A DNA stretch of 64,000 bases from Lentilactobacillus diolivorans DSM 14421. Its GTDB lineage: Bacteria; Bacillota; Bacilli; Lactobacillales; Lactobacillaceae. The stretch lies in NCBI RefSeq assembly GCF_001434255.1, contig NZ_AZEY01000079.1, positions 50,292 to 114,291 of the forward strand, given 5' to 3'. Below, in pieces: positions 10,544 through 45,730 of the stretch (positions are counted from its first letter, which is position 1; every line of letters starts with the position of its first letter). Both the position numbers and the translations under genes were made by a program. Below the pieces are notes generated by a model. The model did no database searches. It was not told the origin of the DNA and saw only the letters and a program-made list of their open reading frames with translations.

Positions 10544-10572
10544 AAATGAGAACTGAATATGATTTGATAACA

Positions 10573-10650
10573 TTAGGGGAGCCATGTGGCTGAGACGTGA
10601 ATTTCACGGACCCTTGAACCTGATCTGGTTAACGCCAGCGTAGGAAAAAT
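10573..10650 (+). promoter_or_regulatory. TPP riboswitch aptamer
   Basis: The THI-box consensus is clear: GGGGAGCC, then GGCTGAGA, then ACCCTTGAACCTGATCTGG, then CCAGCGTAGGAAA. It directly precedes thiW. TPP binding is expected to lower thiW expression. Confidence 0.97.
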
Positions 10651-10665
10651 GTATCAGCTAAAAGT

Positions 10666-14837: not shown

Positions 14838-17063
14838 ATGGCGATTCATATTAACGAACAGGATCAGTTATTTCACTTACAAACGGATCATACGAGTTAT
14901 GTTTTTCAAGTGATGGAAAATGGCGAACTGGGTCAATTATATTATGGCAAGCGAATGCATGTCCGCTCGGCATATTCAAATTTAGCAACCCGTGAACAAC
15001 ATGATGCCACACCTGCTTGGAAACTTGATAAGCCTGATTTTCAACCAGAGTTACTAAAGCAGGAATATGCCAGCTTTGGTAAAGGTGATTTCCGTTACCC
15101 GGCTTTTCAAGTTGAACAGGAAAATGGGAGTCGGGTCACTGAATTTGTTTATGAGGGTTATCAACTAACCGACGGTAAGAAGCGATTGGATGATTTACCA
15201 TCAACTTTTGATGACAATAATGATGATTCTCAGACGCTAACGATTCAATTAAGAGACCGGCTGCTTGATTTAAAATTAGAGCTAAATTACACCATTTTTC
15301 CACATCAAGATGTCATCGTTAGAAGTGCGACCTTTATTAATTCAGGATCAGAAGAAACGGTTCTTAATCGAGCATTAAGTGCGGAATTGGATCTTCCAGA
15401 TCCAGATTACGATTTAATCCAATTCTCAGGGACTTGGGCAAGGGAACGTCATTTGATTCGCACACCACTACGCTCAGGTGTTCAGAGTATCAGCAGCTTG
15501 CGTGCCGCTTCCAGTGCGCAACAAAATCCCTTCTTTATGATTGCCCGGCCACAAACGACCGATGAGCATGGTGGGGTGTTTGGATTTAATCTGGTCTATT
15601 CCGGGAACTTTTTAGATCAGGTTGAAGTTGATCAATTTAATACCAGCCGCATTTTGGTTGGAATTAACCCAAGTGAATTTGCCTGGAAATTGGCACCTGG
15701 TGATACCTTCCAGACACCAGAAGCAATTATTAGTTATACAGACGAAGGTATGAATCAATTGAGCCAGCAGATGAGTGCCTGCTATATGAAGCATCTAGTC
15801 AGTCCCCGTTTTGCGACGCAAGAACGACCAATTCTGATTAATAATTGGGAAGCCACTTACTTTGATTTTGATGAAGATAAAATATTTAAAATTGCGAAAA
15901 AAGCTAAGACCCTTGGAATTGAAATGTTTGTTCTTGACGATGGTTGGTTTGGCCATCGGGATGATGACACAACCTCATTGGGAGATTGGTTCATTGACAA
16001 AAAGAAATTGCCGAGTGGCTTAGGAAACCTCGTCGAAAAAATTCACAAACTTGGACTTAAATTTGGTTTGTGGTTTGAACCGGAAATGATCTCGATGGAT
16101 AGTGAGTTATATCAGAATCATCCAGACTGGTTAATTAAAGCACCTGGTCGACAGGTCACGCCTGGTAGAAATCAGTTCGTTCTTGACATGACACGATCCG
16201 ACGTCATTGATTATCTTGTTGACGTGATGAGTCGAATTATTAAAGAGAGTCGACTTGACTACATTAAATGGGATATGAACCGCAACATCACCGAGATGTT
16301 TGGGAATCAATTGGCGCCAGATCAGCAATTGGAGTTTGCTCACCGTTACATTCTAGGTGTCTATCAGTTATATGCCAGATTGACCAAAGCCTATCCAGAT
16401 GTTTTATTTGAATCTTGTGCGTCCGGTGGTGGTCGGTTTGACCTTGGCATGATGTATTATGCGCCTCAGGCTTGGACCAGTGACGATACGGATGCTGTGG
16501 AAAGAATGAAGATTCAGTTTGGCACGTCCTATGGTTATCCCCAATCAATGATGGGGGCTCATGTGTCAGCAGTTCCTAATGATCAAACTGGTCGGATTAC
16601 ACCGTTACAAACCCGGGCAGATGTCGCTTATTTCGGCGACCTTGGCTATGAATTAGATGTCACCAAAATGTCTGCAGAAGAGCAGGCGCAGGTTCAACAA
16701 CAAACGACATTTTATAAACAACATCGGCGTCTTTTCCAATTCGGAAAATTTTATCGGATTGAAAGTCCGTTTGAAAATGATGGTAATGTTATTAGTTGGG
16801 AAGTCGTGAGCGAGGATAAATCGCACGCAATTGGTTGTCGTTATCAGATTTTAAATCAGCCTAATCCGTCATACTTACGTTTGTACTTTAAAGGGCTGGA
16901 TCCTGATCGAAAGTATACGATCAATGGTGGTTCGGAAGTATTTTATGGAGACGAATTGATGAATGCGGGATTATTCATTAACCGGTTACTTGGCCGAACA
17001 ATGGGGGTTGATTCATCAGCCGACTTCAGTTCGCGATTGTTTTTGATCGATGCTGTTGAATAA
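14838..17063 (+). CDS. melA: Alpha-galactosidase, glycoside hydrolase family 36
   Basis: I start at ATG 14838, giving 741 residues, because the ribosome binding site AAAGGATGG overlaps an earlier ATG at 14829. It has the GH36 layout: N-terminal beta-sandwich, a TIM barrel from about 325 to 640, and a small C-terminal beta domain. The nucleophile Asp lies in YIKWDMNR (about 479) and the acid/base Asp in TSDDTDA (about 549). FVLDDGWFG, CASGGGRFD and WFEPEM line the active site. It hydrolyses terminal alpha-1,6-galactose from melibiose or raffinose inside the cell, since no signal peptide is seen. It follows lacS by 31 nt in one operon. Confidence 0.96.
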   Translation: MAIHINEQDQLFHLQTDHTSYVFQVMENGELGQLYYGKRMHVRSAYSNLATREQHDATPAWKLDKPDFQPELLKQEYASFGKGDFRYPAFQVEQENGSRVTEFVYEGYQLTDGKKRLDDLPSTFDDNNDDSQTLTIQLRDRLLDLKLELNYTIFPHQDVIVRSATFINSGSEETVLNRALSAELDLPDPDYDLIQFSGTWARERHLIRTPLRSGVQSISSLRAASSAQQNPFFMIARPQTTDEHGGVFGFNLVYSGNFLDQVEVDQFNTSRILVGINPSEFAWKLAPGDTFQTPEAIISYTDEGMNQLSQQMSACYMKHLVSPRFATQERPILINNWEATYFDFDEDKIFKIAKKAKTLGIEMFVLDDGWFGHRDDDTTSLGDWFIDKKKLPSGLGNLVEKIHKLGLKFGLWFEPEMISMDSELYQNHPDWLIKAPGRQVTPGRNQFVLDMTRSDVIDYLVDVMSRIIKESRLDYIKWDMNRNITEMFGNQLAPDQQLEFAHRYILGVYQLYARLTKAYPDVLFESCASGGGRFDLGMMYYAPQAWTSDDTDAVERMKIQFGTSYGYPQSMMGAHVSAVPNDQTGRITPLQTRADVAYFGDLGYELDVTKMSAEEQAQVQQQTTFYKQHRRLFQFGKFYRIESPFENDGNVISWEVVSEDKSHAIGCRYQILNQPNPSYLRLYFKGLDPDRKYTINGGSEVFYGDELMNAGLFINRLLGRTMGVDSSADFSSRLFLIDAVE

Positions 17064-29020: not shown

Positions 29021-29130
29021 AAGAACCTTTAAGATTAACCCCGTGAGGTTAAGAAGGAATCGTTGAACCTGGGATATTCTCAGGAATAACTACAACCTCT
29101 TTACCCAACGGCGGTAAAGAGGTTTTTTCA
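29021..29130 (+). promoter_or_regulatory. PyrR-type attenuator of pyrBC
   Basis: The leader starts with CCTTTAAGATTAACC, CCGTGAGGTT and AAGAAGG. This fits the PyrR-binding anti-antiterminator loop (consensus around CC-GAGAGG-TT). The terminator follows: AACCTCTTTACC (29094-29105) pairs with GGTAAAGAGGTT (29113-29124), then a T run. In this system PyrR with UMP favours termination. The pyrR gene is not in the window. Confidence 0.85.
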
Positions 29131-29219
29131 TGCAGATATTGATTTGATTGACGATTTAATTGTTCCCGTGAGAGCAAAACGTCCCCTAAACACTGTGGCA
29201 AAAGACCACTTAATCAAGG

Positions 29220-36712: not shown

Positions 36713-37879
36713 TTATTTTTTCAAAACTCGCACACGGAATACTGCATCGATTTTGCTTAATCGGGCGATCAACGCATTGTCTTCCTCATTTTTCAAATTC
36801 TCTAAGTCAATAATGGTATAAGCCACGTTTTCACGAGCAGCGTTACTCATTCCCTCAATGTTGATTCCGGCATTTGCAAGGGCAGTCGCAATTTGACCCA
36901 CCATATTAGGGATGTTTTTATGAATTAAAGTTACACGATAGGGTGTTTGAAACGGTACTTGAAGATTGGGTAAATTGACTGAGTTCGTAATATTCCCAGT
37001 TTCTAAATAGGTCATAATTGTCCGAGCACCCTGAGTCGCACCATTGACCTCAGCTTCTTGAGTAGAACCCCCAATGTGTGGTGTGACAATAACGTCATCA
37101 CGATTGAGGAGGATGTTATCGCCAAAGTCAGTCATATAGGTTTGCACACGATGGGCGTCTAAAGCTTTGATGACGGCTTGGTTGTCAACAATGCCGCCAC
37201 GCGAGTAATTAAATAGCCGAACGCCATCCTTCATAATCGCAAGTTGTTCTTTGCCAATTAGACCGGTTGTTTCCTCGTTCTTAGGGACATGAACAGTAAC
37301 GTAATCGGCGTTGCTGATAGCTTCAGCCAAAGTTCGCGCTCTGGTAATTGTTGTTGAGATATGCCAGGCAGCATCAGCTGATAGATAGGGATCGTAACCA
37401 ATAACATTCATGCCAAGTGCACTAGCTGCATTGGCGACAAGCGAACCAACGTGACCAACGCCAATGACTGCTAAGGTTCGGCCCGTTAGCTCGGTGCCCT
37501 TAAATTTGGTCTTATCATGTTCTGTTCGTAACGAAATATCTGCCCCGCTATTTTGAGCAGCATAAGCAGCCGCCGCAAATAGATTTCGTGACGACGCAAC
37601 CAAGAGTGAAACGATTAATTCTTTAACAGCGTTGGCATTACTCCCAGGGGTGTTGAAAACGGCTGTTCCATTTTCAGTTGCCCGGTCTAATGGAATATTG
37701 TTGAAGCCAGCGCCAGCCCGTGCAATGACTTTCAAAGTTTTCGGTAAGGTTTCCTTGTGTAAATTTACGGAACGAATCAGATAGGCATCAGCATCATCTG
37801 TTTGGTTAATTTGATACTGATCAGTAAATTGATCTAATCCGGCTTGAGCGATTGCGTTATATGTTTTTACTTGATACAT
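36713..37879 (-). CDS. serA: D-3-phosphoglycerate dehydrogenase
   Basis: I start at ATG 37879 with AGAGGGGG upstream, giving 388 residues (MYQVKTYNAIAQ). The protein has the substrate and NAD domains of the 2-hydroxyacid dehydrogenase family (ARAGAGFNNIP, GVGHVGSLVANAASALGMNVIGYDP, FNYSRGGIVDN, TPHIGGSTQEAEVNGA with the catalytic His) and a C-terminal ACT domain (about 315-388). It oxidises 3-phosphoglycerate in the first step of serine synthesis. The ACT domain suggests feedback by serine. It follows serC by 13 nt. Confidence 0.95.
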   Translation of the reverse strand: MYQVKTYNAIAQAGLDQFTDQYQINQTDDADAYLIRSVNLHKETLPKTLKVIARAGAGFNNIPLDRATENGTAVFNTPGSNANAVKELIVSLLVASSRNLFAAAAYAAQNSGADISLRTEHDKTKFKGTELTGRTLAVIGVGHVGSLVANAASALGMNVIGYDPYLSADAAWHISTTITRARTLAEAISNADYVTVHVPKNEETTGLIGKEQLAIMKDGVRLFNYSRGGIVDNQAVIKALDAHRVQTYMTDFGDNILLNRDDVIVTPHIGGSTQEAEVNGATQGARTIMTYLETGNITNSVNLPNLQVPFQTPYRVTLIHKNIPNMVGQIATALANAGINIEGMSNAARENVAYTIIDLENLKNEEDNALIARLSKIDAVFRVRVLKK

Positions 37880-37892
37880 CTTATTTCCCCCT

Positions 37893-38969
37893 CTAATGTT
37901 GTCTTTCAAAATTGTGCAAGAAATCGACCAGTGCTTGAACACCTGCTAATGGCATTGCATTATATAAACTGGCTCGCAGACCACCAACACTACGATGTCC
38001 CTTTAAGTTCATTAAGCCGGCATCGGTTGTTGCTTGGATGACTTGTTTATCCAGATCGGCATCACCAGTTGTGAACGGGATGTTTGTAAGCGAACGGTCA
38101 GTTTTCTTAATGTGATTGCTAAACAATTTGGAGTCGTCTAAGAAATCATATAGTAATGCTGATTTTTGACGATTGATTCTTTCAATTTCGGCGATACCGC
38201 CTTGCTGTTTTAACCACTTGAGGACTAATCCTGATGCGTAAATTGCGAAGACAGGTGGCGTATTGAACATCGAGTTCTTTTTAACAAATAAGTTGTAATT
38301 AAGAATGCTGGGGATGTGTTCAACTGGTTTAACCAGATCATCCCGGATAATGGCAATTGTGACACCGGCTGGGCCGACATTTTTTTGAACACCCGCAAAA
38401 ATAAGGCCAAAATCAGTAACCTTGTATTCCTCAGCTAAAAAGTTTGAGGATAGATCACCGACCAACGTGACATTCCCATGTTCTGGAAGTTGATGGTAAG
38501 CTGTTCCTTCAATGGTATTATTCGTTGTAATGTGCAGGTAATCGTAATCCTTGTTGGAAATGGGATTAGGCATCTGCGGCAATTCTTGATAATGGTCATC
38601 TTTAGTTGAAGCCAAAACATCAACTTGAACGCCTAAGTTGGCTGCTTCGTCGCCAGCCCGGGTTGCCCAATGACCACTGTCTAGGAGTGCAATCCGTTTG
38701 TGATTGGTGGCAAGATTTAGAGGAGCAGCTGCAAACTGACCGGTACCGCCACCTTGGAAGAAGAGAATATGGTAATTATCAGGAATATGCATAAGGTCTC
38801 TCAGATCTTGTTCAGCAGTGTTGATGATATTATCGAAAAGTGAAGACCGATGTGAGATCTCCAGAATGCCCATTCCCGTGCCATCAAGCGATGGTAGTTC
38901 TTCTTGGATCTGTTTGATGACCGGATCAGGAAGGGTTGCCGGACCAGCTGCAAAATTATAAACTGTCAT
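37893..38969 (-). CDS. serC: Phosphoserine aminotransferase
   Basis: I start at ATG 38969 after AAGGGAG, giving 358 residues (MTVYNFAAGPATLPDPVIKQ). Family motifs: GMGILEISHRS, FFQGGGTGQFAAAPLNL, DLSSNFLAEEYKVTDFGLIFAGVQKNVGPAG with the PLP Lys in QKN. The C-terminus SVGGLRASLYNAMPLAGVQALVDF is typical. It converts 3-phosphohydroxypyruvate to phosphoserine. It leads the serC-serA operon, which is preceded by a Ser/Thr-rich leader peptide. No serB of the classical HAD type is nearby. Confidence 0.96.
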   Translation of the reverse strand: MTVYNFAAGPATLPDPVIKQIQEELPSLDGTGMGILEISHRSSLFDNIINTAEQDLRDLMHIPDNYHILFFQGGGTGQFAAAPLNLATNHKRIALLDSGHWATRAGDEAANLGVQVDVLASTKDDHYQELPQMPNPISNKDYDYLHITTNNTIEGTAYHQLPEHGNVTLVGDLSSNFLAEEYKVTDFGLIFAGVQKNVGPAGVTIAIIRDDLVKPVEHIPSILNYNLFVKKNSMFNTPPVFAIYASGLVLKWLKQQGGIAEIERINRQKSALLYDFLDDSKLFSNHIKKTDRSLTNIPFTTGDADLDKQVIQATTDAGLMNLKGHRSVGGLRASLYNAMPLAGVQALVDFLHNFERQH

Positions 38970-38990
38970 AAATAAAAACTCCCTTATCAA

Positions 38991-39121
38991 AAATTAAAAG
39001 CTCTCACGGATTTAATAATCACCATGAGAGCTTGTTCGCTACGTTATTAGCGGTCTCACAGTGATGAAAAGTTCATCCATGTCAGGCCTTTTGTTTAATA
39101 ATTCACACCAAAAGATGGCCT
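38991..39121 (-). promoter_or_regulatory. Attenuator of serC-serA
   Basis: The terminator on the minus strand is a 12-bp stem (38998-39009 with 39022-39033, AGCTCTCA core) followed by TTTTAATTTTTG. A competing fold pairs GTGAGA (39054-39059) with TCTCAT (39024-39029) around a CGCTA/TAGCG stem (39037-39052), which removes the terminator's 5' arm. A further hairpin, AGGCC and CTTTTG (39084-39121), begins at the leader stop codon. Confidence 0.78.
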
Positions 39122-39185
39122 ACACAGATGTCACCGTAGACCAGGAGGAAGATGTAGTTGTTAGCTTGATTAAATTAACGTTCAT
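39120..39185 (-). CDS. Ser/Thr-rich leader peptide of serC-serA
   Basis: A 21-codon ORF on the minus strand contains the run TTTSSSWSTVTS: five Ser and five Thr codons in its last 13. The ribosome binding site GGAGGT (39193-39198) lies 7 nt before ATG 39185. ATG 39188 is also in frame. It sits between a promoter and a terminator hairpin, so stalling at Ser codons on serine shortage would open the serC-serA genes. Thr may be sensed too. Confidence 0.85.
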   Translation of the reverse strand: MNVNLIKLTTTSSSWSTVTSV

Positions 39186-39213
39186 CATTCTGACCTCCAT
39201 TTCTTATAACTAA

Positions 39214-39242
39214 AATCTAACAGAACTCTCAGAGAAAAGCAA
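39214..39242 (-). promoter_or_regulatory. Promoter of the serine leader
   Basis: On the minus strand TTGCTT (39237-39242), 17 nt, TAGATT (39214-39219), with a TGT just before the -10. Confidence 0.6.
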
Positions 39243-39356
39243 CCAGAATTATTGAATATTATTTTTTGTCAGGTGAAATATGTAGCCAAATTAGGTCAAA
39301 GAGTGCATAATAATTCCTAACACATTCATTTTAAGATGAACAATGGAGGAACGTTA

Positions 39357-39986
39357 ATGACCGATTTTTACTTTATTCGACATGGCAAGACGCCAGCAAA
39401 TGCAGACGGAATCAAGCAGGGAACTATTAATACCACTGAAACTTATCTTTCGGAAACCGGCAGGAAGCAAGCGCAAACGCTACACGAACACTTTGATATT
39501 TCATTTGCCGATCGAATCATTTCAAGCCCACTGCAGCGGACTAAAGAGACGACGAAGATTCTTAATCAAACCGCAAACTTACCGGTAACTTATGATAAAC
39601 GATTGTTGGAAATCTCCTACGGAAAATGGGATGGTCAGAAAAATAAAGACTTGGAAGCTGTTTATCCAGATGTATTTGATCATGTTTTACATGATGTTTT
39701 ACCGACATACGCACCATTAGCTAATGGTGAAACATTTGAGGATGTTATCTCGCGAGCAGGTCAGTTTATGGTTGATACTGCTCAGCAATATCCCCAAGAC
39801 AGGATTATTGTTGTGACTCATGGTTTTACAGTCAAAGCGGCAGTATTAACTGCATTGGGAGATCCAGATAAAAAGATGGCTGTAGAAGAGCCTGATAATA
39901 CCAGCGTTACTAAAATTACAAAGGATATTAATTCGGGAACCTACTACTTAAGATATTTCAATCGAATGGTTAATTCGGAATTTTAA
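39357..39986 (+). CDS. Histidine phosphatase (phosphoglycerate mutase-like)
   Basis: I start at ATG 39357 with GGAGGA 7 nt upstream, giving 209 residues. The catalytic motif FIRHGKTPAN (5-14) holds the phosphorylated His. Other residues are Arg in SSPLQRTKET, Glu in LLEISYGKWDG, and VVTHGFTVKAA with the second His. Members hydrolyse various phosphate esters. Because it diverges from serC-serA and no HAD-type serB is present, it could supply the phosphoserine phosphatase step, as known for some metal-independent enzymes of this family. That is inference. Confidence 0.85.
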   Translation: MTDFYFIRHGKTPANADGIKQGTINTTETYLSETGRKQAQTLHEHFDISFADRIISSPLQRTKETTKILNQTANLPVTYDKRLLEISYGKWDGQKNKDLEAVYPDVFDHVLHDVLPTYAPLANGETFEDVISRAGQFMVDTAQQYPQDRIIVVTHGFTVKAAVLTALGDPDKKMAVEEPDNTSVTKITKDINSGTYYLRYFNRMVNSEF

Positions 39987-39987
39987 T

Positions 39988-40016
39988 TTGACAAATAATT
40001 CACCATCCGTTATAGT
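39988..40016 (+). promoter_or_regulatory. Promoter of the Cys leader and oppA-like gene
   Basis: TTGACA (39988-39993), 17 nt, TATAGT (40011-40016): a near-consensus promoter immediately after the phosphatase stop. Confidence 0.8.
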
Positions 40017-40050
40017 TTGACTCAGTAAATAACGAAGGAGGAAGCCACCA

Positions 40051-40143
40051 ATGCAATTATCAGCTGCTCAACTTATGTGTTGCTCAATGTGTCAAGTTCA
40101 GGTTAGCACTGATCGTGGCTTCTTTGGTAAAACCATCATTTAG
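40051..40143 (+). CDS. Cys-rich leader peptide
   Basis: A 30-codon ORF with an excellent ribosome binding site (AAGGAGG, 40035-40041). It contains LMCCSMC at residues 8-14, three Cys and two Met codons in a row of six. A strong promoter precedes it and a 19-bp terminator follows. This is the form of a leader peptide that senses Cys-tRNA (possibly Met). The gene behind it is a peptide-binding lipoprotein. Confidence 0.85.
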   Translation: MQLSAAQLMCCSMCQVQVSTDRGFFGKTII

Positions 40144-40240
40144 TTGGGCATTTAAATGGACTCGGGTGAGTTTAGCAAACTAATGATGACCCAAAAGTGT
40201 CGCAGTTTCAGTGTTAACACTGAAGCTGCGGCACTTTTTC
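40102..40240 (+). promoter_or_regulatory. Attenuator of the oppA-like gene
   Basis: The terminator is a 19-bp stem with a TTAA loop (40195-40213 with 40218-40236) and a T run. GTTAGCACTGA (40102-40112), inside the leader ORF just after the Cys codons, can pair over 11 bp, one of them G-U, with TCAGTGTTAAC (40208-40218). That covers part of the terminator's 5' arm and loop. A ribosome held at the Cys codons leaves this segment free and termination fails. A ribosome moving on covers it. Confidence 0.82.
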
Positions 40241-40341
40241 TTTGTTTAAATTTTTGAATAAGGTGGCGGTGGATTTGGATTCTTGTTGTCCGATGCAAAG
40301 TGAAGTGAAAAAATTAAGCAATTATTCTGGAGGAATTTAAA

Positions 40342-41988
40342 ATGCGAAAGTTTAGATCGATTCTATTAGTGGCCGTTCTTGGGTTAGTTGTAATTGGACT
40401 TGCGGCTTGCCAAAAATCACCGGCTAAAAAGTCGACTTCAAGTGACAAAGCTGTTTTGAATCTTAGCACCACCGCACCACTTGATACAATTGATATTTCT
40501 AAGGCGACTGGTTATGGTCAAACCGGAAATGTGTTTGAGAGCTTTTATCGATTAGGTAAGAATGGCAAACCAACGGCCGGTTTAGCAAAAAGCAGTCAGG
40601 TTTCCAAAGATGGTAAAACGTGGACATTCACGTTGCGTAACGCTAAGTGGAGCAACGGCGATAAAATTACTGCTCAAGATTTTGTTTATTCATGGCGACG
40701 AACAGTAACACCAAAGACTAAATCAACTTATGCATATTTATTCAGTGGGATTAAAAACGCCGATCAAATTGCAGCTGGGAAGGTTTCACCAAGCAAGATT
40801 GGAATTAAAGCCTTGAATAACAAGACTGTTCAAATTCAACTGGATAAACCAATCGCTTACTTTAAGGTTTTAATGGCTTACCCACTATTTGGACCCCAGA
40901 ATCAAAAAGTGGTTGATAAATACGGTAAAAAGTATGGGACTCGTTCAAAATATATGGTTTACTCCGGCCCATTCAAAATCCAGAACTGGAATGGGACTGG
41001 TAATAAATGGCAGTTTGTTAAGAACAACCAGTATTGGGATAAGTCTGTTGTTAAGCTGAAGAAAATTAATTATACCGTGGTTGAAAGCCCAACCACCGGC
41101 TTAGAACTCTATCAGCAGGGCAAACTTGATTTAACACCACTTTCAAATACCCAAATTAAAAATTATAAAAACAATTCGCAATTTAAGCAATATCCATATT
41201 CAGTTGTCGGTTACTTGAAATATAATTTTAAGGATGCCAATCCAACGAAGCGGAAGATATTAAATAACCGTAACATCCGACTCGCAATGTCGTTATCGAT
41301 TAATCGGAAACAGTTAACTCAGAAAGTTCTCGGTGATGGGTCAGCAACCCCAACTGGATTTGTTGCTTCTGATCTTGCTAAGAATCCTAAAACCGGTGAA
41401 GACTTTTCAAAAGAACAGGCGGTTCCTAATGCGGTCGATCACAATGAGAAGTTAGCACGGCAATATTGGAAAAGGGGATTAAAACAACTTGGGATTAAGA
41501 AAGTAAATCTAACAATTTTGGGTGCCAATGATGATCCAACAACCAGCCCAATTTCACAATATTTAAAAGCTCAATTTGCCAAGGTGTTGCCAGGATTTAC
41601 GTTAAATATTAGAAATATTCCCTCTAAGGCCTCTAATGAACAAGAATTAAAGGGCGATTTTGATATTAGTTTGTCGGGATGGGGCGCTGACTTTAATGAT
41701 CCAATTTCATTCCTACAGATTCCGTTGACGGGAACATCGTATAATAGCGGAAAATATAGTAATGCGAAATTTGATTCGTTGGTAAAGCGTGCTCAAAATC
41801 AAGATGCCAATAATCCAGAGAAACGCTGGGATGATTTGGTTCAAGCAAGTCGATTATTTAGTAAGGATCAGGGAATGACACCACTGTACCAACAAGTTAC
41901 TTCGTATTTGCAGAAACCAGGCTTGAAGGGTGTCATTCATAATACTGCTGGTACGCAGTGGAATTACAAATACGCAACCGTTAAGTAA
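40342..41988 (+). CDS. Oligopeptide ABC transporter substrate-binding lipoprotein (OppA-like)
   Basis: The 548-residue protein has a typical lipoprotein signal (lipobox LAAC, Cys at 23) and the SBP family 5 fold (TAPLDTIDISKATGYGQTGNV, YSGPFKIQNWNGTGNKW, DFDISLSGWGADFNDPISFLQ). It would be tethered outside the membrane and deliver peptides to an Opp permease encoded elsewhere. It is related to the binding protein at 1775, which lacks the Cys. The Cys leader upstream suggests it takes up a Cys-containing peptide or serves as a sulfur-amino-acid source, which is inference. Confidence 0.93.
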   Translation: MRKFRSILLVAVLGLVVIGLAACQKSPAKKSTSSDKAVLNLSTTAPLDTIDISKATGYGQTGNVFESFYRLGKNGKPTAGLAKSSQVSKDGKTWTFTLRNAKWSNGDKITAQDFVYSWRRTVTPKTKSTYAYLFSGIKNADQIAAGKVSPSKIGIKALNNKTVQIQLDKPIAYFKVLMAYPLFGPQNQKVVDKYGKKYGTRSKYMVYSGPFKIQNWNGTGNKWQFVKNNQYWDKSVVKLKKINYTVVESPTTGLELYQQGKLDLTPLSNTQIKNYKNNSQFKQYPYSVVGYLKYNFKDANPTKRKILNNRNIRLAMSLSINRKQLTQKVLGDGSATPTGFVASDLAKNPKTGEDFSKEQAVPNAVDHNEKLARQYWKRGLKQLGIKKVNLTILGANDDPTTSPISQYLKAQFAKVLPGFTLNIRNIPSKASNEQELKGDFDISLSGWGADFNDPISFLQIPLTGTSYNSGKYSNAKFDSLVKRAQNQDANNPEKRWDDLVQASRLFSKDQGMTPLYQQVTSYLQKPGLKGVIHNTAGTQWNYKYATVK

Positions 41989-42061: not shown

Positions 42062-42183
42062 GGAAGCCAGAGCGGGACAAAAGGCGGTTAACTTCCAGAG
42101 TGTAATTGGATTATCCGAATATTCTGAACTTGAATATTTGGATAATTCGGTTACACTCTGGAAGTTGCCTTTTGTCCCGCGTT
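42062..42183. repeat. Composite repeat with long palindrome (type A)
   Basis: GCGGGACAAAAGGC, then AACTTCCAGAGTGTAA, ATTATCC and GAATATTC meet their complements in mirror order around TGAACTT, a near-perfect palindrome of about 110 bp. On the minus strand it is preceded by the conserved linker (CACGATTGTTATCGAGCGAA at about 42185-42205). Confidence 0.88.
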
Positions 42184-42211
42184 TTCGCTCGATAACAATC
42201 GTGTTTACATG

Positions 42212-45326: not shown

Positions 45327-45375
45327 TTTGTTTTTATTATTCAAATAAATAAATGGCGATTTATTTTCTCAAAAT

Positions 45376-45443
45376 GCAACAAATCAGAGTGCACCAAAAG
45401 TTGTCTTTGGGCGCACATTTCCACTCGGTAATAATCGTGATTA
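45376..45443 (-). repeat. Composite repeat, inverted copy with a small unique hairpin
   Basis: On the minus strand: TGTAATCACGATTATTACC, GAGTGGAAAT, then the hairpin GTGCGCCCAAAG with CTTTTGGTGCAC, then TCTGATTTG. The linker and end are conserved and the hairpin is unique. Confidence 0.7.
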
Positions 45444-45492
45444 CACAAAACGGCAGGATGGGGCAATAGTCTTTTTTCACAGTCTCTGTTAG

Positions 45493-45730
45493 TGTCAACA
45501 CGATTGTTACTAAGCAAAAACGCGGGACAAGAGGCAACTTCCGGCCGTGTAACCGAATTATCCAAATATTCAAATTTAGGATATCTCACTGAACTTGTTA
45601 CTTAGTTAAAAAACGTGGACCGGCAAACGGACCCCGGTCATAGAAGCCCCCTAACTTAACATTCCAAAATTGGGAATATCAAGTTAGGGGGGCTTCTATT
45701 CTGGGGCCTAATCACTTGCTGGTCCGCTCT
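45493..45730. repeat. Composite repeat fused to long hairpin copy B2
   Basis: The linker ACGATTGTTACTAAGC and the left arm of the type A palindrome (45518-45575) run into a second linker (TTGTTACTTAG, AAAACGTGG). Hairpin B2 follows: CCCC, GGTC, an arm of 26 nt (45640-45665), a 7-nt loop, the partner arm (45673-45699), TCT, GGGG, with outer GGACC/GGTCC and the end CGCTCTGTTT. The inner arms are unrelated to those of B1 and B3. Confidence 0.82.

Follow-up and report, generated by a model that had tools for sequence, protein, structure and literature searches.

We identified a short cysteine-rich leader ORF upstream of the OppA-type gene in the 64,000-nucleotide stretch of DNA analysed here (the window), which comes from a 3.26 Mb genome of the genus Lentilactobacillus. 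We interpret this leader, with a probability of roughly 0.87, as a ribosome-mediated transcription attenuator that would sense charged tRNA-Cys and control an oligopeptide-binding protein. Since a Cys leader and a switchable terminator precede oppA in a large part of the lactobacillus family, the gene is probably switched on only at cysteine shortage. Bacillota are usually described as controlling amino-acid genes by T-boxes and riboswitches, and leader peptides are regarded as exceptional. The Cys-codon leader is widespread among the food and gut bacteria of one large family, with a T-box as its substitute in one clade, and has a module in common with a second leader, which is located on a cysteine operon. 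For the peptide-binding protein, which is otherwise anonymous, it suggests a role connected with sulfur amino acids.

Layout and competing pairings of the oppA leader

The elements are arranged on the plus strand in the order promoter, ribosome-binding site, leader ORF, terminator and OppA-type gene. The promoter proposed in an earlier note on this DNA was recovered by a consensus scan as TTGACA-17-TATAGT (positions 39988-40016), with 11 of the 12 consensus bases, and the 30-codon ORF with a strong ribosome-binding site and the motif CCSMC, described in the same note, is found at 40051-40143 (MQLSAAQLMCCSMCQVQVSTDRGFFGKTII) behind the Shine-Dalgarno sequence AGGAGG (40036-40041). The Cys codons are the tandem codons 10 and 11 (TGT TGC, 40078-40083) and codon 14 (TGT, 40090-40092). 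Hairpin detection and folding placed the intrinsic terminator at 40193-40238; the hairpin announced previously is thus present, but its stem is longer than the 19 bp given for it, as at least 20 pairs were counted; a T tract comes after the stem. The gene for the OppA-type substrate-binding lipoprotein (40342-41988) has orthologs in 17 genomes of the genus and at 80 named loci. Its product is a family-5 substrate-binding protein (SBP_bac_5) whose best-scoring solved relatives are the peptide-binding proteins 5kzt, 6npo and PrgZ (4faj), and it scored far under the curated cut-off of all nine NCBIfam families listed. No T-box was detected within the element in the window, and a comparison of the element to Rfam gave no meaningful family, the matches being microRNA models far below their thresholds.

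Putative genes for the synthesis of serine, a precursor of cysteine, adjoin the element. Directly upstream, at 36713-39986, are minus-strand genes which we take, from their sequences, to be phosphoglycerate dehydrogenase-like and phosphoserine aminotransferase-like, together with a presumed phosphoglycerate-mutase-like gene. Elsewhere in the window, a TPP riboswitch (10565-10664) and a PyrR binding site (29022-29131) were detected, both with scores over the Rfam gathering score. A long imperfect palindrome (GCGGGACAAAAGGC...GCCTTTTGTCCCGC) is located 3' of oppA at 42080-42190, and a similar-looking sequence is present at 45341-45589 (near 45.4-45.6 kb); the two are perhaps copies of a repeated hairpin element.

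The leader contains the 1:2:3:4 architecture of an attenuator. Segment 1 consists of an outer part, the ribosome-binding site GAAGCCAC (40041-40048), which pairs with GTGGCTTC (40115-40122) and shows covariation in 17 genomes, and of an inner part in codons 4-7 (40060-40070), which can pair with 40103-40112 (8 of 10 pairs in the window). Segment 2 (40102-40126) is the antiterminator arm, which in the pairing tests competes for segments 1 and 3, and segment 3 (40194-40217), delimited by the terminator scan and the pairing tests, is the 5' arm and loop of the terminator formed by segments 3 and 4. The 11-bp pairing with the terminator 5' arm and loop that had been claimed earlier was found between GTTAGCACTGA (40102-40112) and TCAGTGTTAAC (40208-40218), with 11 pairs including one G-U, and it extends to about 25 nt (40102-40126 with 40194-40217) with a duplex energy of -19.0 kcal/mol, a value that 2% of 150 shuffled versions of region 2 also reached (p = 0.02). 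The second helix, in which the ribosome-binding site and codons 4-7 pair with segment 2, was not mentioned in the earlier note; the 1:2 pairing of the window alone is not significant (p = 0.07). The leader RNA folds with an energy of -81.4 kcal/mol, as compared to -54.25 +/- 4.49 kcal/mol for shuffled sequences (z = -6.05; none of 200 equal), with much of the energy coming from the terminator. In the window, segment 2 starts 24 nt past the first Cys codon; at the 29 loci with significant 2:3 pairing, the median of this distance is 27 nt (range 16-52). By the size of the ribosome footprint, the start of segment 2 clears a ribosome stalled at the Cys codons.

According to the proposed mechanism, a ribosome provided with plentiful Cys-tRNA would pass codons 10, 11 and 14 and cover segment 2, upon which the terminator would form and oppA would be off. 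With scarce Cys-tRNA, the ribosome would halt on the Cys codons and mask segment 1, and the freed segment 2 would pair with the terminator 5' arm, so that the RNA polymerase would continue into oppA. In an untranslated leader, segment 1, including the ribosome-binding site, would pair with segment 2, and termination would be the default. For oppA, we infer the stalling, the direction of the regulation and cysteine as the signal.

Conservation in Lentilactobacillus and recurrence in the Lactobacillaceae

The leader peptide was identified in 17 of the 24 genomes of the genus, the window's own counted. Each of these 17 leaders is followed, as the next long ORF, by the OppA ortholog, in agreement with the gene that the earlier note had placed there. 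The ortholog in one other genome (G021) has just 215 nt upstream, which is too short to score a leader, and the remaining six genomes have no OppA match or only relatives with 42-46% identity. When the relatives were compared for their Cys codons and pairing, C10, C11 and C14 were invariant in the 17 leaders and, together with G23, the sole unchanging residues after the start; codons 10 and 11 swap synonymously between TGT and TGC, and variation is free at codons 3, 7 and 8. Pairs are formed in 156 of 170 cells of the 2:3 core, a value reached by 12 of 2000 partner shuffles, and in 133 of 136 cells of the ribosome-binding-site helix, a value reached by none of 2000, figures that we treat as supports and not as probabilities, because the register of the ribosome-binding-site segment was picked for the best pairing and the shuffles exchange partners among genomes with no regard to their relatedness. 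Compensatory changes in the ribosome-binding-site helix include a change from G-C to A-T at one pair in five genomes and two changes in a single genome (G004). The inner 1:2 helix is conserved without a covariation signal, with 146 of 170 cells paired, a value reached by 1171 of 2000 shuffles.

The attenuation proposed in the earlier note is supported by the invariant Cys codons and the conserved 2:3 and ribosome-binding-site helices, and also by leaders found outside of the genus. The idea of an element restricted to Lentilactobacillus was abandoned when such leaders appeared upstream of OppA orthologs in other genera. The OppA ortholog group has scores of at least 895 bits, and no other match exceeded 635 bits when 246 genomes of the order were searched. 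The 80 ortholog loci studied are the best 80 of 232 confirmed relatives from one scan of named genomes; among these, a contig end truncates one, T-boxes are present at 8, and 71 have a Cys-rich leader ORF (L130, with 284 nt before oppA, and the 8 T-box loci being removed from the 80). All 71 listed leaders, one of which (L145) is doubtful, contain CC, with a mean of 4.5 Cys per 32 residues. A strict rule, by which a leader has a ribosome-binding site and at least three Cys, two of them close together, selected 65 of the 71 listed orthologs. Among dinucleotide shuffles it selected 119 of 2840, and among the distinct paralog regions 2 of 37. The 71, unlike the 65, include six hand-added leaders whose ribosome-binding sites are weaker (L121, L136, L167, L176, L180, L182), and the paralog control excludes L095 (short upstream region), L235 (a duplicate) and L087, the earlier tally having been 2 of 39.

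The leaders of other genera differ from one another, as exemplified by MQMLMSMCCECNCMPCAQLADVNAGVDLLFVS in Secundilactobacillus oryzae, MSKFINTQCCCLVTCCPVGNMEFDMQKIRLTLPRLD in Ligilactobacillus salivarius and MSLKQFCCCQNCLSTKSMTMVNNVC in Furfurilactobacillus milii, with clustered Cys codons as their common property when read by eye. A family-wide search with the leader-peptide profile yielded strong matches in the 17 members of the genus only; all others had E >= 0.0098, and the 13 weak matches that were opened were dismissed as chance.

A hairpin of -8 kcal/mol or lower was detected at all 71 listed leader loci, with a doubtful or wrong pick in at least four of them (L119, L121, L145, L147). 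This wider detector was adopted because a stricter first version had found a terminator at 39 of 65 leader loci and folding revealed hairpins at most of the missed loci that were inspected. Pairing was tested at 68 loci, which are the window and 67 others, with the same four left out; at p <= 0.05, 2:3 pairing was obtained at 29 and 1:2 pairing at 44 of the 68, the 2:3 test being not significant at the remaining 39, and the independent cases are fewer than the loci since many are closely related (at least 23 of the 68 belong to Levilactobacillus). A leader is also present at 9 of 11 additional orthologs from outside the named loci (L077-L087), some of which belong to the same species as named loci. 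In this group, the upstream region of L077 is too short to score a leader, and L087, which is 54% identical and bears the ortholog signature, lacks both a strict Cys leader and a T-box upstream.

A few loci deviate from the common pattern. Levilactobacillus cerevisiae (L147) has kept the Cys leader and has apparently lost the terminator hairpin of its relatives; this is a natural variant in which the loss would make oppA constitutive. Behind the leader of Ligilactobacillus saerimneri, no clear terminator was found. A match to a group II intron (47 bits, over the gathering score) is located before oppA in Candidatus Ligilactobacillus excrementavium (L130, 59-128), the leader region of which may be interrupted by the intron. 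ROOL RNA (135 bits, over the gathering score) was identified upstream of an oppA ortholog in Ligilactobacillus salivarius (L129, 294-842), and the Rfam comparison of the other loci matched only unrelated or neighbouring elements. One record (L178) is titled Faecalicatena absiana (Lachnospiraceae), with an OppA and leader that group with Lactobacillus in the tree; a wrong record title or a transfer of the locus may account for this.

T-boxes, the cysteine synthase leader and a second ORF before oppA

In the Liquorilactobacillus clade, a T-box is located upstream of the same oppA gene at all 8 loci listed (65.8-94.1 bits, one of the eight exceeding the gathering score). The specifier of these T-boxes reads ATG, in the contexts GAAGATGA, GAAGATGG or GAAAATGG, and the first of these contexts recurs in T-boxes of the window's own genome before genes that we take by eye to be MetQ-, MetA- and MetE-like. 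T-boxes before the genes presumed to encode leucyl-, phenylalanyl- and valyl-tRNA synthetases and a HisZ-like protein contain CTC, TTC, GTA and CAC, respectively. By this reading of the specifier, in which the distance from GAA varies by at least one base and some T-boxes are unreadable, the T-boxes of the clade read as specific for Met, not Cys. When the OppA proteins were placed in a quick tree, two changes were needed for the T-box label, which was nested inside leader-bearing lineages. Short ORFs with two Cys codons in Liquorilactobacillus were rejected as leaders, one (L124) being inside the T-box span and two others (L120, L132) being discarded on position. As one and the same gene bears either a Cys leader or a Met T-box, a sulfur amino-acid role is suggested for the OppA protein, and the control of oppA may be linked to sulfur amino acids rather than only to cysteine.

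The genome from which the window is taken has 54 T-box matches. Of its 18 SBP_bac_5 genes, oppA alone is preceded by a Cys leader, and a T-box match is located shortly before 7 of them. A T-box match of 85.0 bits, below the gathering score, is located in the window at 1455-1689 before another SBP_bac_5 gene.

We also scanned 30 upstream regions of this genome, belonging to 17 further SBP_bac_5 genes, 8 of 9 SBP_bac_3 matches, 4 PALP genes and oppA itself; L266 was left out as the same ORF as L265. Besides oppA, the strict rule selected a single gene, which is cysteine synthase or cystathionine beta-synthase-like, with scores below the NCBIfam cut-offs, and has a presumed cystathionine lyase gene next to it downstream. 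Its leader, MTYFMSNAINSCCRTTRFWRCSAC, is accompanied by a promoter-like sequence and a terminator, and was found upstream of such genes in 29 of the 30 matches listed from 397 genomes of the family, the window's own included; it has no meaningful match in Rfam. The simple test for a 2:3 antiterminator was significant at 0 of 26 of these leaders (25 of the 30 loci plus L308; L283, L289, L292 and L300, at contig ends, and L303 were not included), and the switch at these loci may for this reason be built differently. We still classify this element as a Cys leader with a terminator. The oppA leaders of Ligilactobacillus acidipiscis, L. salitolerans and L. pabuli share the end RCSxC and the DNA around GCGATGTTC...GTTA with the cysteine synthase leader, which suggests that the module has moved between oppA and cysteine synthase genes.

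The cysteine synthase leader is also present in 32 plasmid records of Lacticaseibacillus, including pFAM18149.25 of L. paracasei FAM18149, where it precedes genes for cysteine synthase, a PLP enzyme and EpsC (cysK2-ctl1-cysE2), the operon for methionine-to-cysteine conversion of a cheese bacterium. The terminator of this leader is exactly the palindrome printed for strain FAM18149 in a previous study (PMC6004538), in which RNA-seq data gave higher levels of cysK2, ctl1 and cysE2 in cysteine-deficient than in methionine-deficient medium, and in which heavy coverage of the 5'-UTR and a terminator were described and premature termination was proposed. The mechanism was there called "yet to be discovered"; in the main text of that study the string "attenuat" does not occur, and all six mentions of "leader" refer to T-box or S-box leader sequences. 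Attenuation by a Cys leader is a direct candidate answer to the question that this study left open, namely how the operon is induced without cysteine. On the mobilizable plasmid pFAM18149.25 (L308, 3218-4572), the leader adjoins an IS30-like element, and it is absent from the gene table of the plasmid, which is incomplete. In NZ_CP017266.1 of strain FAM18149, the leader is found at 16624-16695 on the minus strand, and the palindrome is located 3' of it.

A second small ORF with Cys codons, MDSCCPMQSEVKKLSNYSGGI (40275-40340, plus strand), with a TTG start behind AAGGTGG, lies between the terminator and oppA in the window and runs through the ribosome-binding site of oppA. Equivalents led by a ribosome-binding site are located after the terminator and 55-68 nt before oppA in 15 of the 17 Lentilactobacillus genomes; they have Cys among codons 2-6, begin with ATG, GTG or TTG, and in 9 of the 15 read exactly MCSxM. 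Such equivalents appeared in 105 of 1700 shuffled regions, scored with the identical list of ribosome-binding-site words, which was made after viewing the real sequences. Similar second ORFs were seen, without statistics, in two other genera (MAKSCCCWMMTKN, MESECSDCRVFPS). With low confidence, we suggest that the second ORF extends the cysteine control to translation, such that stalled or running ribosomes on this ORF would set the translation of oppA. It is possible, although we are inclined to doubt it, that movable Cys leader attenuators constitute a cysteine regulon of the Lactobacillaceae, consisting of oppA and the methionine-to-cysteine operon, where relatives use T-boxes, with oppA of Lentilactobacillus controlled in two layers by way of the second ORF. 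If so, one amino acid would be read twice on one transcript.

Alternative explanations and comparison to known systems

The 3:4 and 2:3 geometry would serve equally well if the sensor were the Cys-rich nascent peptide, with metal binding or the thiol or oxidative state in the tunnel stalling the ribosome before the same terminator, and clusters such as CCSMC and CCECNC could indeed bind metals or become oxidised. Arrest peptides are usually constrained in sequence, which counts against such a sensor, as does the finding that the spacing and context of the Cys codons differ between most genera, with clustered Cys codons recurring when read by eye. A further argument against it is that the sibling leader belongs to an operon for cysteine biosynthesis whose expression responds to the omission of cysteine (PMC6004538), and we consider a nascent-peptide sensor to be unlikely. 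Any stall within the leader would release segment 2, and the leader could for this reason answer any slowdown of translation, caused for example by antibiotics, like BmrB-type or macrolide leaders, and not cysteine. Such a general response is very improbable, given that Cys accounts for 14.4% of the residues beyond the start codon in the 71 listed leaders and that the genes downstream encode a peptide-binding protein or, for the sibling leader, cysteine synthesis, and not resistance.

The peptide is conserved inside the genus, as might be expected of a functional Cys-rich microprotein for which the terminator merely fixes the ratio of leader RNA to oppA RNA. However, much of the conservation outside of the Cys codons falls in codons 18-25, a stretch that overlies segment 2 and must pair, and the peptides at the same place in other genera are mostly unrelated in appearance and are missed by the genus profile; we assign only a minute probability to this explanation. 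A ribosome-mediated attenuator responding to charged tRNA-Cys is the reading that we prefer.

The trp and his attenuators of Proteobacteria consist of a short ORF led by a Shine-Dalgarno sequence, with codons for the sensed amino acid, 1:2, 2:3 and 3:4 pairings and an intrinsic terminator. The oppA leader has the same Shine-Dalgarno-led ORF, sensed-amino-acid codons, competing 1:2, 2:3 and 3:4 pairings and terminator, but would sense Cys and control a transport protein, and its segment 1 contains its own ribosome-binding site. The polycysteine short ORFs of mycobacteria reported by Canestrari in 2020 are said to be leaderless, whereas the oppA leader is led by a Shine-Dalgarno sequence. T-box riboswitches (RF00230), like the proposed attenuator, sense the charging of tRNA and control a terminator, and a T-box replaces the leader in the Liquorilactobacillus clade; unlike the leader, they bind the tRNA directly and contain no ORF.

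In Rhodobacterales, attenuation by Cys-tRNA has been proposed for the uORFC-8-2 motif that precedes cysS (PMC8632094); as described there, the motif has tandem Cys codons in an upstream ORF and a terminator stem with a U run, as in the oppA leader; the two are set apart by host and gene, with cysS in Alphaproteobacteria and an OppA-type gene in Lactobacillaceae. The leader ORFs of actinobacterial cys operons have clustered Cys codons upstream of cysteine genes (PMC1262725), but are described there without conserved terminator hairpins, in contrast to the Shine-Dalgarno-led oppA leader with its intrinsic terminator. Histidine leader peptides before hisS and hisZ in bacilli (PMC2965389) are, like the oppA leader, classical leader peptides in Firmicutes, which are mostly users of T-boxes, but they differ in amino acid and genes. 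In Listeria, the OppA-like cysteine transport-associated protein CtaP is described as needed at low cysteine (PMC10269559), and it is comparable to the OppA of the window by analogy only. We recognised no description of a Cys leader peptide in lactobacilli in a limited set of open-access literature. Cys leader attenuators are already known or proposed in Rhodobacterales and Actinobacteria, and the candidate in lactobacilli appears to be new, with an unusual distribution.
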